The translations under genes were made by a program, and so were the position numbers. 10,681 nt of DNA from JBFLXN01 sp040755715 [NCBI: Candidatus Edwardsbacteria bacterium] (GTDB taxonomy: Bacteria; Edwardsbacteria; AC1; JBFLXN01), in NCBI GenBank assembly GCA_040755715.1, contig JBFLXN010000092.1, positions 1 to 10,681 of the forward strand, given 5' to 3'. The notes beneath the pieces were generated by a model, which saw only the letters and a list, made by a program, of their open reading frames with translations, searched no databases and was not told the origin of the DNA. Positions 2,460-9,981 of this stretch are shown here, in pieces. Positions within the stretch are counted from its first letter, which is position 1, and each line of letters opens with the position of its first letter.

Positions 2460-3020
2460 ATGTCAATGATTCCTGATAATTCAATAGATGGCATTCTTAC
2501 CTCTCCACCTTATTTTGATGCACTGGATTACATTGGCAATAATAAGCCATCTATCTTGATTCTTGGATTTGATGAGGATTTAATATGGCCGTCCACAAAA
2601 GTGTTTTATGAATCAAAACACAGAGATGAAACGAAATATGCAGAGCAATTGCCACTTATGGTTAGTGACAGATATTTTTTAATCCAGTTACCTCAGTCAA
2701 GTCTTAACCTGATAAAACTGCTCAATGAATCCCGGAGGGTCTACAAATCTAAAATAGTTGAGAATTATCTCAAGATGATGAAACTTTCGTTTGGGCAATG
2801 TTATAGAGTTCTAAAGAGGGAGAAATACTATCTTATGGTTATCAGTAAATATCACTTGTGGCTTATTCGCGGTAAGGAGGAAGTGATTGAAACATCCTCT
2901 ATATTAGCCGACTTGGGAAAGTCTGTCGGTTTTAAAGTTGTTGACATTATTGAACACGGTCTATCAAAAGCAGATAAAGGTAAGATTGGCGTTGAGGATA
3001 TAATAGTCTTTCAAAAATGA
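2460..3020 (+). pseudogene. Catalytic-domain fragment of a second amino-methyltransferase lacking motif I
   Basis: The first ATG gives 186 residues, but methyltransferase-like sequence already runs in this frame from about 2442 (SDST before NMSMIPDNS), just after a stop at 2433-2435. Motif IV is clear: IDGILTSPPYFDALDY (residues 9-24). Next come a long spacer, a helix and strand typical of the region after motif IV (LSFGQCYRVLKREKYYLMVISKY), and the end IGVEDIIVFQK. No DxFxGxG motif I is found before or after, in contrast to the neighbouring methyltransferase. The family usually has motif I some 80-120 residues upstream of TSPPY, which points to an internal deletion between this piece and the frame ending at 2449. 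Alone it should not bind SAM. No good ribosome site precedes the ATG. Confidence 0.65.
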
Positions 3021-3088
3021 TGACCAAAATGTAAAATCTTCCTGCACCCCCTTTTTTAAAGGAGCAGATGGAAAACCGGAGGTAGAAC

Positions 3089-4411
3089 TTGAAAGTAGAA
3101 GTTAAGGAAACAAAGACCTATGAAAGGGTTCTGGAAGTTGAGGTTCCCCCCGAAAGAGTGAAACAGGCAATTGAAGAGACCTACAATTCCTACGCCCGCA
3201 AAGCGAAAATTCCCGGCTTCCGTAAAGGAAAGGTGCCAAAGGAAATCCTCAAAGCCCGATTCGGCCCAGCCATTGAACAAGAAGCAATTGATAACCTCAT
3301 TCCCAAAATCTACAAAGAGGCTTTGAAAGAAACCGGACTCTCTCCTGTTAGTGAAGGTATTATTGAAGATTTCTCTGTGACCGAAGACAAAATTCTCAAG
3401 TTTAAGGCGAAATTGGAAGTGATGCCTCCAATTCCTCTACAAAGATATAAGGGCATTACGGTAAAGCGAGAAATCAAGGAAATTACCGACGAAGATGTGG
3501 AAAAAGAATTAGAGTCCTTGCAAAATCTCTATGCAGAATACACTCCCTCTGAAAACGAAGCCAAGAGAGGCGATTTGCTGACTGTAGATTATCAATTGTT
3601 AGACCAGTATGGATTGCCCATCATCGGTGAAAGAGTGGAAAATTACGCGTTTGAACTGGGTTCACCTGAGGTTCTCGCAGACTTCAATGAGGCATTGATT
3701 GGTATTAAGATAAATGAAGAACGAAGAATCGTGGTAGAATATCCCTTAGACCATCAAAATCAAAAACTTGCTGGTCAAAGGGCATCTTTTTTGGTAAAGG
3801 CAAAAGAGGTAAAAGAAAAGAAAGCCCCTGAACTTTCCGATGAATTTGCTAAGACAGTAGGAGAATTCCAAAATCTTCAGGAACTGAGAACAAGACTTAG
3901 AGAACAATTGAGATTGAACGAAGAACAAAGGTCAATTCAGTCCGCCAAAACAAAGATTCTTAATACACTTATTGAGGAGAATCCTTTTGAACTCCCAGAA
4001 TCAATGATTAAAAATTCCTTGGATGCCATTGTAGAAGATATGAAACACCGGCAAAAGAATCAAACTTTAGACGAAGAAAAAATCCGTGAGTCCTATCGTC
4101 TAGCGGCCATCTGGGAAATTAAAAGAATGCTATTTCTGGAAGAAGTTGTTAAACGACAGAATTTAACATCAACGGAAGAAGATTTAGAAAAATATTTTGA
4201 GAGCATAGCTATTTCTCAACAAAAAAGCAAAGAGAAAATCAAGCAAAAATTTGTGCAGGACAGAGAGGAATTGGAACATCTAAAAAATGAAATCCGCCGA
4301 CAGAAGGCGATAGATTGTTTGTATGCCAATGCTGAAGTTATAGAAGAAATTATTAAAAAAGAAAAACCTAAAAGTCCAGAAAAGAAAAGGAGATTCTTAT
4401 TATGGGACTAG
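3089..4411 (+). CDS. tig: Trigger factor, ribosome-associated chaperone
   Basis: Trigger factor docks on the large ribosomal subunit beside the exit tunnel and shelters nascent chains. The 440-residue protein has the usual three parts. The N-terminal ribosome-binding domain carries the signature [10 protein letters not shown] (41-50). A FKBP-type prolyl isomerase domain (about 155-245) runs from GDLLTVDYQ through FNEALIGIK to [19 protein letters not shown] long charged helical C-terminal domain forms the chaperone arms. It starts at TTG 3089, chosen because GGAGGT (3078-3083) lies 5 bases upstream and the product begins [20 protein letters not shown] as in the family; no in-frame ATG would do. 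The last 10 bases overlap clpP. It begins the housekeeping operon 68 bases after the R-M remnant. Confidence 0.97.
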
Positions 4412-5147: not shown

Positions 5148-7689
<2,542 letters not shown>

Positions 7690-7693
7690 AATT

Positions 7694-7723
7694 TAGGGGG
7701 TAATTTCCGCAGAATTGCTCCTA
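7694..7723. repeat. Hairpin between purA and hisS
   Basis: TAGGGGGTAATT (7694-7705) can pair with AATTGCTCCTA (7713-7723) around a 7-base loop, giving 11 pairs including two G-U pairs and one bulged G. It fills most of the 45-base gap and replaces the place where a ribosome site for hisS would be expected. No T-run follows, so it is a poor terminator. Its ends (TAGG..CCTA) resemble those of the perfect palindrome inside hisS, which suggests related dispersed elements. Confidence 0.5.
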
Positions 7724-7734
7724 CAATTTCCATT

Positions 7735-9198
7735 ATGAAAAAGACTAAAATTTCTGTTATTGAACCTCGCATCTTGAAAGGGTTTCGGGATTATTTCCCT
7801 GCCGAAATGATTGCCCGACAAAAGATGATTGATACTATCAGAAAGGTCTATGAACTGTATGGCTTTGAGCCTCTGGAAACACCGGCCTTGGAATACAAAG
7901 AGACGCTTTTGAGTTGCGGGGAAGAGGCAAGCAAAGAATTCTATGAATTTAAAGATGTTGAGGGCAATGAAGTTGCTTTGCGCTTTGATTTGACTGCTTC
8001 ACTATCCCGCGTAATAGCCCAGTACAAAGAACTACCAAAGCCGTTTAAACGGTATCAAATCGCCAGTGTCTGGCGAATGGATAAGCCGGGACCAGGACGC
8101 TTTAGAGAATTTATCCAATTTGATATTGATACTGTTGGCTGTGAATCAATGATTGCGGATGCCGAGATTATTTCTGCTACTGTTTTTACCTTAGAAGCTC
8201 TGGGAATGTTGAACTACAAGGTAAGAGTCAATAACCGAAAAATTCTAAATAGCTTGATGGCTTTCGCCAATATTCCCGAAGACACCGCCAAAGATGTCTT
8301 TCGAGTTCTGGATAAACTTGATAAACAGGGATTAGAGGCAGTAAAGCAGGAATTAACCACTGGTAGAATTGATGCTTCTGGCGACAGGATTCCTGGTCTA
8401 GGGTTAGAAGAAAATCAGGTGCGCTGCCTTGAGGAATTCCTCAGTAGGGGTTTGATTAATCAAACCCCTACAAGAAAAAGACGTACCGAGATTCTAGGAA
8501 ATGTAAGCCAACTCTTTAAGGATATTCCGGGGGCAGAAGAAGGTATCTCTGAATTGCGACAGATTGATGAATGTCTTTCCGCCTCAGGGATTAGTGAAGA
8601 GAAAGTGGTGATTGATTTGAGTTTAGCCAGAGGTTTAGATTACTATACTGGACCAGTCTTTGAAACTATCTTTTTAGATGCCACCGAATACGGAAGTGTT
8701 TTTGGGGGGGGGCGATATGATGGTTTAGTAAAGCGATTTTTGAGTGAGGAAATTCCGGCGACTGGAATTTCTATTGGAGTGGACCGCCTTTTTGCGGCAT
8801 TACAAAAACTTGGTCTGGTAGACCTTTCCTCCTCAACCGCACAGGTATTGGTAACGGTAATGGACCAGACTTACCTGAAGGAATACCAAAAGATTGCCCA
8901 GGAGCTCCGACAGGCAGGCATTAAGACAGAACTTTATACGGGAATGGAGAAAAGTTTGCGCAAGCAATTGGAATATTGTGACCGCAAAAGGATACCAATT
9001 GTCATTATCGCCGGTTCAATTGAATTTGAAAAAGGAGAAATCTCCATTAAAAATATGAGAATTATAGGGGCAGGTCACGAATTACCCTCAGAGATTAAGG
9101 AGCGTCAAGCATGGCTACAAGCGAGGGTAGGTCAGCGAAGTGTGCCCAGAGCAAATATGATAAAAGAAATTAAGGAGATGCTCTCAAAAAGTTGCTGA
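7735..9198 (+). CDS. hisS: Histidyl-tRNA synthetase
   Basis: Class II aminoacyl-tRNA synthetase charging tRNA-His in the cytoplasm. The 487-residue protein is longer than the roughly 420-430 residue E. coli type, because of an extended middle insertion domain. Motif 1 lies around GFRDYFPAEM and YELYGFEPLETP (16-50), with ALRFDLTASLSR (81-92). Motif 2 is YQIASVWRMDKPGPGRFREF (107-126). The histidine signature is ARGLDYYTG (298-306), and motif 3 is ATGISIGVDRLF (342-353). An anticodon-binding domain follows (about 370-487). ATG 7735 is the only reasonable start and fits the family, yet no Shine-Dalgarno sequence precedes it. Residues 237-246 are encoded by a perfect palindrome (listed separately) in the insertion domain, away from catalytic motifs. 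Confidence 0.97.
   Translation: MKKTKISVIEPRILKGFRDYFPAEMIARQKMIDTIRKVYELYGFEPLETPALEYKETLLSCGEEASKEFYEFKDVEGNEVALRFDLTASLSRVIAQYKELPKPFKRYQIASVWRMDKPGPGRFREFIQFDIDTVGCESMIADAEIISATVFTLEALGMLNYKVRVNNRKILNSLMAFANIPEDTAKDVFRVLDKLDKQGLEAVKQELTTGRIDASGDRIPGLGLEENQVRCLEEFLSRGLINQTPTRKRRTEILGNVSQLFKDIPGAEEGISELRQIDECLSASGISEEKVVIDLSLARGLDYYTGPVFETIFLDATEYGSVFGGGRYDGLVKRFLSEEIPATGISIGVDRLFAALQKLGLVDLSSSTAQVLVTVMDQTYLKEYQKIAQELRQAGIKTELYTGMEKSLRKQLEYCDRKRIPIVIIAGSIEFEKGEISIKNMRIIGAGHELPSEIKERQAWLQARVGQRSVPRANMIKEIKEMLSKSC
8444..8471. repeat. Perfect 28-bp palindrome inside hisS
   Basis: The left half GTAGGGGTTTGATT (8444-8457) is exactly repeated as its reverse complement AATCAAACCCCTAC (8458-8471) with no spacer. 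In the hisS frame it codes for most of SRGLINQTPT (237-246), in the non-conserved insertion domain before ELRQIDE. A perfect 28-base palindrome inside a coding gene is very unlikely by chance. It looks like a dispersed palindromic element that landed in frame, or a gene conversion of intergenic repeats into the gene. Confidence 0.8.
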
Positions 9199-9573: not shown

Positions 9574-9640
9574 TCATCCCCTCTTGAGAGGGGGTAGGGT
9601 GTGTCATCCCCTCTCCCCTTCTCTTTCAAAGAGAAGGGGA
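9574..9640. repeat. Two CCCCTC-type palindromes with a direct repeat
   Basis: TCATCCCCTCT occurs at 9574-9584 and again at 9604-9614. The first copy starts a hairpin CCCCTCT/AGAGGGG (9578-9584/9587-9593). Near the second lies a near-perfect palindrome, CCCCTTCTCTTT (9615-9626), one central base, then AAAGAGAAGGGG (9628-9639), extended by a T-A pair outside. Such CCCCTCTCCC hairpins are typical of dispersed REP-like repeats. Neither is followed by a T-run. Confidence 0.6.
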
Positions 9641-9773: not shown

Positions 9774-9820
9774 TTCTACTATTCCATTGTTCCACAATTG
9801 TAGAATAATGGAATAATGAA
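9774..9820. repeat. Imperfect palindrome centred on CAATTG
   Basis: ATTCCATTGTTC (9780-9791) pairs with GAATAATGGAAT (9802-9813) around a CACAATTGTA loop, with one G-U pair; outer TTCTAC and related bases add partial symmetry. It has no attached gene on either strand. It belongs to the run of palindromes that fills this gene-free stretch, and may be another dispersed element. Confidence 0.5.
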
Positions 9821-9948: not shown

Positions 9949-9981
9949 AAAAAGCCGTTCCGACTGACGGAACGGCTTTTG
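9949..9981 (-). terminator. Rho-independent terminator, possibly bidirectional
   Basis: AAAAGCCGTTCC (9950-9961) and GGAACGGCTTTT (9969-9980) form 12 perfect pairs, closed by a G-C pair over a 5-base loop. Read on the minus strand, the stem ends in five T residues, about 25 bases after the stop of the T9SS fragment at 10004. That is normal for the end of that gene. On the plus strand four T residues follow, so it could also end a transcript from the structured RNA candidate. Confidence 0.85.

Follow-up and report, generated by a model that had tools for sequence, protein, structure and literature searches.

The window, by which we mean the whole stretch of 10,681 nucleotides that was analyzed, carries the genes tig-clpP-clpX-purA-hisS, and a perfect 28-bp palindrome lies within the coding sequence of hisS (Table 1). 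The hisS product matched the histidyl-tRNA synthetase (HisRS) model TIGR00442 with 389.6 bits (cut-off, 286.75). Restriction genes lie upstream of this series, at 470-2024: a gene for a ThaI-type restriction endonuclease (PF15514, 333 bits) adjoins an adenine-methyltransferase-like gene whose NCBIfam matches were below the cut-offs. The ORF at 2460-3020 had no match in Pfam or NCBIfam; it encodes TSPPY, presumably a methyltransferase-like motif. Three inverted repeats follow hisS (9614-9640, 9780-9815, and 9950-9980), all with sequences unlike that of the palindrome, and the second has 18-bp arms that are 89% complementary (fold z, −3.94). The purA gene of the window had its best match, at 62%, in a nine-genome phylum set that gave the best purA matches among those searched, and no other window gene adjoined purA in the six purA regions examined from that set.

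Table 1. Features of the hisS locus in the window and, in the last three rows, transposase-like genes with an in-frame GTAG repeat at other loci (positions within the respective locus).
Feature	Position	Strand	Remarks
hisS, histidyl-tRNA synthetase, 487 aa	7735-9198	+	Host gene; TIGR00442 and PDB HisRS chain matches
28-bp perfect palindrome GTAGGGGTTTGATTAATCAAACCCCTAC	8444-8471	none (.)	REP core plus CTAC; each strand reads GTAG plus hairpin
24-nt GTAG-REP core	8444-8467	+	GTAG, stem GGGTTTGAT, loop TA, stem ATCAAACCC
24-nt core on opposite strand	8448-8471	-	Element symmetrical
Codons of predicted loop (residues 238-249), with most of the insert	8446-8481	+	AlphaFold model
Transposase-like gene, L128	1426-1818		In-frame GTAG repeat
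Transposase-like gene, L846 (Monoglobus)	2998-3363		In-frame GTAG repeat
Transposase-like gene, L850 (phage contig)	ORF from 106		In-frame GTAG repeat

The palindrome equals its own reverse complement and consists of two 14-bp arms without a spacer, just as the first-pass annotation had read it. None of 300 simulated first-order Markov versions of the whole window had a spacerless arm longer than 11 bp, and the simulations never reached 14 bp (0/300); the analytic expectation for spacerless 14-bp arms is ~6e-5 per window. Folded as single-stranded DNA, the palindrome gave z scores of −5.62 and −5.68 for the two strands. In the window, GTAG preceded a perfect hairpin once, visible on both strands, and none of five other tags did so; this copy is single, with no paired or clustered partner. 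The same annotation had likened the ends of the palindrome to a hairpin just before hisS (7688-7732, minus strand), but we rejected this hairpin as a second copy, as its fold z was −0.64 and it was absent from a GTAG-hairpin scan that allowed two mismatches. An intrinsic terminator was also ruled out, since the palindrome sits in the middle of the gene and the sequence 3′ of it, AAGAAAAAG, has no T run. Rfam gave no matches across the window at gathering thresholds.

Starting at codon position 2, the palindrome encodes ten residues of HisRS, SRGLINQTPT (residues 237 to 246), and leaves the reading frame uninterrupted, in agreement with what had been annotated. We take these residues to belong to the HisRS insertion domain. 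Only one of the three frames of the element is free of stops (RGLINQTP), and it is this frame that hisS uses; because the element is symmetrical, the single open frame holds on the other strand too. We then aligned the HisRS sequences of 13 of 16 hisS loci, setting aside L014, L015, and L016 (36, 28, and 24% identity). Between the flanking Leu and Arg, 12 of the 13 relatives had exactly 6 residues, whereas the window HisRS had 13, a net gain of 7 residues, or 21 bp. The remaining relative, from a planctomycete, had 17 residues there, and so the site tolerates at least one other change in length. With the closest relative only 59% identical to the window HisRS, the exact insertion footprint is not readable. 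The gain of 21 bp would fit a 20-nt stem-loop plus one base entering after a pre-existing GTAG, but other 21-bp cuts fit equally well. In an AlphaFold model of the protein (mean pLDDT 80.8, 14 sequences), the predicted loop listed in Table 1 lies between helices 226-237 and 250-260, and residues 243 to 246 have a pLDDT below 50.

The layout of the element matches that of the GTAG REPs. As described in parts of the text of PMC3733652, these repeats have a terminal, unpaired GTAG, a stem of 5 to 13 bp (mostly 6 to 9), and a short loop, often TY; according to portions of two papers, they are 20 to 40 bp long and also occur as pairs (HH/TT) and clusters (Di Nocera et al. 2013, PMC3733652; Nunvar et al. 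2010, PMC2817692). The hisS element has the same tag, a 9-bp stem, a 2-nt loop, and a length within that range, and its relatives elsewhere occur as opposed pairs and in tandem, although the window copy itself is single. It departs from the published elements in that its GTAG is paired with CTAC, as it also is in another genome (G044), giving a 28-bp palindrome that is readable on both strands. A further difference is that few copies of its arm type were found per genome. The arm GGGTTTGAT does not occur in the text portions of PMC3733652 and PMC2817692 that we compared, figures and supplements aside. Among the openly licensed PMC papers listed by our literature searches, none dealt with the arm sequence, and no title in the string-search listings pointed to REPs; one of the string-search papers, PMC4192349, contained just primers in the passages compared.

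To see where else this type of arm occurs, we looked for the pattern GTAGGGGTTTGATN{0,6}ATCAAACCC in a set of 386 genomes drawn around one genome, G311 (kinship not given). It was found at 10 places in 8 of the 386 genomes, and the backward control was found in none (0/386); viral contigs had it on 7 contigs, at 4 distinct sites. The pattern allowed loops of 0 to 6 nt, yet the loop was 2 nt in every genome and viral match, and the 24-nt layout was constant in length across the 8 genomes and 7 viral contigs. Both the window and G044 have the loop TA, and the other sites have TT, TC, or GA, with TC in G310, a genome of the phylum set that gave the best purA matches. Among the 14 other sites with this type of arm, 13 lack CTAC after the hairpin and a single one has it, so we define the core as GTAG, a 9-bp stem, a 2-nt loop, and a 9-bp stem. 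The site with CTAC carries a 28-mer identical to that in hisS (G044:C74:3116-3143); it is intergenic, lying where a beta-barrel protein gene and one for a B12-binding radical-SAM protein run toward each other, and its flanks differ from those in the window. The proposal that the palindrome represents a family able to invade genes therefore stands in part: there are repeats elsewhere, including the identical 28-mer, and 12 of 13 HisRS sequences are without the extra residues, but the family is that of the GTAG REPs and not a new one.

Several further properties of these sites were apparent. Stem variants in G092 were compensated on both arms (TTTG/CAAA, TTCG/CGAA, and CTTG/CAAG), and reading of the flanks revealed an opposed second hairpin at L788/L789, L792, and L798 and a tandem at L797. 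Copies of the exact arm type were few: the 8 genomes with a match had one or two apiece. Clear intragenic placement was seen at none of the 14 other sites, though several overlapped ORFs in a mechanical ORF list. The exact 28-mer, with up to three mismatches allowed, was absent from all 8 genomes of hisS relatives, and the exact 28-mer gave no matches in viral contigs. Searching viral contigs with the arm GTAGGGGTTTGATT alone was abandoned, as its matches were mostly due to chance: among the 120 matches listed, the hairpin continued only in L220, L225, L278, and L280.

We also considered the wider class of GTAGGGG palindromes. Matches to GTAGGGG N{6,24} CCCCTAC, chance matches included, were present in 86 of 290 genomes, with a maximum of 153 in G174 (control, 7); in genomes with few matches, the control was often equal or higher. 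In viral contigs, the center of GTAGGGG N14 CCCCTAC was fully complementary in 48 of the 134 matches listed (21 distinct), compared with 1 of the 120 matches listed for the control GATGGGG N14 CCCCATC. When the spacing was allowed to vary, 19 of 24 perfect cases among the matches listed were 28 or 29 bp long, in a viral sample that partly overlaps the N14 sample. Samples taken from contig starts had 30 GTAG hairpins in G174 (0 to 3 for each of seven other tags) and 20 in G085 (0 to 5), two genomes picked as palindrome rich, with symmetrical elements counted twice. Contig-start samples of G310, G044, and G062 had no perfect GTAG hairpins, and that of G092 had one; other tags reached 2 in G310. 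Thirteen hisS loci together had 5 GTAG hairpins, none of them GTAGGGG, against 0 to 2 for other tags.

Elements of 28 to 29 bp numbered 145 distinct sequences in the loci examined, and 56 of these lay within an ORF of at least 100 codons. Nearly all of the 56 (52/56) were in loci above 50% G+C, in which ORFs often arise by chance; below 50% G+C, the figure was 4 of 18. When 20 ORFs spanning a palindrome were searched with Pfam, a domain was found in 11, and in none did the palindrome lie inside the domain. The gene for a Mu-like phage portal protein (L371, 5464-7053, minus strand) reads through a GTAGGGG palindrome of 28 bp in frame, within a linker of variable sequence, with homology flanking the palindrome on both sides; because the linker is too variable, insertion is not provable there. 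A homologue search with L432 returned only the query itself. At four loci of G084 (L175, L179, L182, and L183), differing palindrome centers lie inside one longer flanking repeat (ATACCAAATT ... GCAAGGG.ATAAT), which looks as if the center alone had been exchanged. A 29-bp palindrome, GTAGGGGCGACCCGGCGGGTCGCCCCTAC, is common to G263, G025, and G207, the kinship of which is not given.

GTAG REPs are thought to be mobilized by REP-associated tyrosine transposases, according to parts of PMC3733652 and PMC2817692. Among 38 of the 290 genomes, Y1_Tnp (PF01797) occurred in 15 of the 19 that were rich in GTAGGGG palindromes and in 12 of the 19 that had none. This gives no separation, and we discarded the idea that carrying Y1_Tnp predicts palindrome richness. 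G310 has the repeat and no Y1_Tnp match. Among 30 Y1 loci taken from the scanned genomes, 2 had GTAG hairpins within ~1.5 kb; over all 30, GTAG gave 4 hits, GATG 2, GGTA 1, and five other tags 0. A stricter test that required the terminal CTAC was positive at 1 of 17 Y1 loci from rich genomes and at 0 of 13 others.

One locus, L128 of G359, has a transposase-like ORF that matched NF047646 with 56.5 bits, below the cut-off of 80, and that is preceded in frame by a stop. The same GTAG hairpin occurs before and inside this ORF, and two looser GTAG hairpins follow it. Homologues of the ORF in plasmid and phage records had GTAG hairpins within 1 kb at 4 of 9 loci, the nine being all the homologue places found. 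These loci gave 13 GTAG hits, compared with 0 to 2 for each of seven control tags; among the 13, the hit at 2648 of L846 belongs to a simple repeat, the element of Spirosoma contributes two, and all four control-tag hits also fall in the Spirosoma locus. Six GTAGGGG hairpins surround a REP-type transposase gene in Leptolinea, and a symmetrical 28-mer lies directly 3′ of the transposase gene in Spirosoma; the other two positive loci are those from Monoglobus and a phage contig. NCBIfam scans covered five of the nine genes; each of the five matched NF047646, the RAYT model, two of them above the cut-off. Genes of this kind have GTAG hairpins nearby in Leptolinea, Monoglobus, Spirosoma, and the phage contig, and no transposase was found for the repeat of the window itself. 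Taken together, the evidence for a transposase link is mixed.

The GTAG repeat lay in frame inside a transposase-like ORF at 3 of the 39 loci (30 Y1 loci and 9 plasmid and phage loci; Table 1). In each of the three ORFs one copy falls in a loop after an MPNH(F/L)H motif and is in the codon phase found in hisS, its end being read as Pro-Thr (CCT-ACN). Against a fixed phase, a second copy in L850 is in frame in a different phase, and the copy in the portal gene of L371 also differs from the hisS phase. Two more CCCTAC matches in L850 lie beyond the ORF and were excluded from the count. Given so few cases, and given that stops in part dictate the phase, a common phase rule is a conjecture. We consider it distinctly doubtful that GTAG repeats are tuned for tolerance inside proteins, keeping an open frame and entering flexible loops, those of their own transposase genes included.

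The reading that we favor, with a probability of about 0.84, is that the hisS palindrome is a copy of a GTAG-type REP that was inserted in frame and has persisted in a length-tolerant loop of HisRS. A 24-nt GTAG REP core, extended by CTAC to the 28-bp palindrome, would have been inserted into hisS rather than built up there gradually, and a REP-associated tyrosine (Y1/HUH) transposase may have moved it as single-stranded DNA. Its survival would reflect the length tolerance of the loop together with its use of the only stop-free frame of the three, with a net gain of 21 bp (7 codons), and the loop itself may be neutral. Most likely, the palindrome is without a function of its own in the host. 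Intragenic GTAG REPs were already reported in 2013, among them copies in tRNA synthetases of X. oryzae and others, along with the proposal that such inserts are possibly neutral in linkers or loops (PMC3733652, in part). What is added here to the cases in that part of PMC3733652 is the host gene hisS, a symmetrical version of the element, and transposase genes with a copy inside them.

It is conceivable that the element is a GTAG REP but that no transposase was involved, and that replication slippage, hairpin-templated strand switching, or gene conversion gave rise to it or spread it, the CTAC end arising as an imperfect hairpin was perfected. The failure of Y1_Tnp to track palindrome richness (15/19 versus 12/19), the repeat of G310 without a Y1_Tnp match, and the presence of hairpins near only 2 of 30 Y1 loci all favor such an origin, as does a single stem in G085 that occurs with CTAC, CTAG, CTCC, CTTG, and CAAC ends. 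A transposase contig may be missing from draft genomes, however, and the constant length and GTAG tag amid unrelated flanks in different genomes, together with the four cases of REP-type transposase genes with GTAG hairpins nearby (Leptolinea, Monoglobus, Spirosoma, and the phage contig), argue against it, so that we regard an origin of this kind as unlikely but as deserving some weight. It is far harder to see the palindrome as a functional RNA or DNA signal of hisS maintained by selection, be it a hairpin in the mRNA at which translation or transcription is slowed or halted, or a site where a protein binds. The hairpin is indeed stable (fold z, −5.62 and −5.68), and PMC3733652 considers REPs as RNA elements. 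It sits mid-gene with no T run downstream, however, Rfam gave nothing for the window at its gathering thresholds, 12 of 13 relatives do not have the additional residues, and the 28-mer occurs between unrelated genes in G044, all of which make this very improbable.

We think it highly improbable that the palindrome belongs to another class, either the Rickettsia palindromic elements (RPEs) or the MITEs. RPEs are likewise palindromic repeats found in frame inside coding genes, and the first-pass annotation had drawn this comparison, but it did not survive closer inspection: the tag of the hisS element is GTAG and not CGTC, the superfamily in which RPE-4 and RPE-6 have been placed, and RPE-1 is called longer (PMC3733652, in part). 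MITEs, defined in the same portion of PMC3733652 as 70 to 300 bp long with terminal inverted repeats of 15 to 30 bp, were ruled out by the total length of 28 bp (24 bp for the core) and by the different flanks in the window and G044. Chance or an assembly artifact has next to no plausibility given that no simulation of 300 reached such a palindrome, that the identical 28-mer exists in another genome, and that the insert is in frame, in the sole open frame.

If the palindrome is a GTAG-type REP copy, the essential enzyme HisRS joins the proteins known to carry this repeat. Beyond hisS, GTAGGGG hairpin repeats of a fixed 28 to 29 bp are indicated in many genomes, and the transposase genes with an in-frame repeat offer a direct test bed for the movement of REPs and their survival inside genes.

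Finally, we searched for empty sites by comparing spacers between genomes. Between G174 and G368, presence and absence were seen within spacers, but the spacers were scrambled and neither a clean empty site nor a footprint emerged; the same was true among G376, G374, G380, G378, and G359, where spacers were too scrambled for a footprint. At site A, the repeat was present in G376 only (1 of 5 genomes), and at site B it was present in 3 of 5. Site C had an intact repeat in G374 and a degenerate one in G378, and the three other genomes were without it. In the degenerate GTAG repeat of G378 at site C (L776), the right arm contains another hairpin, apparently nested within it.
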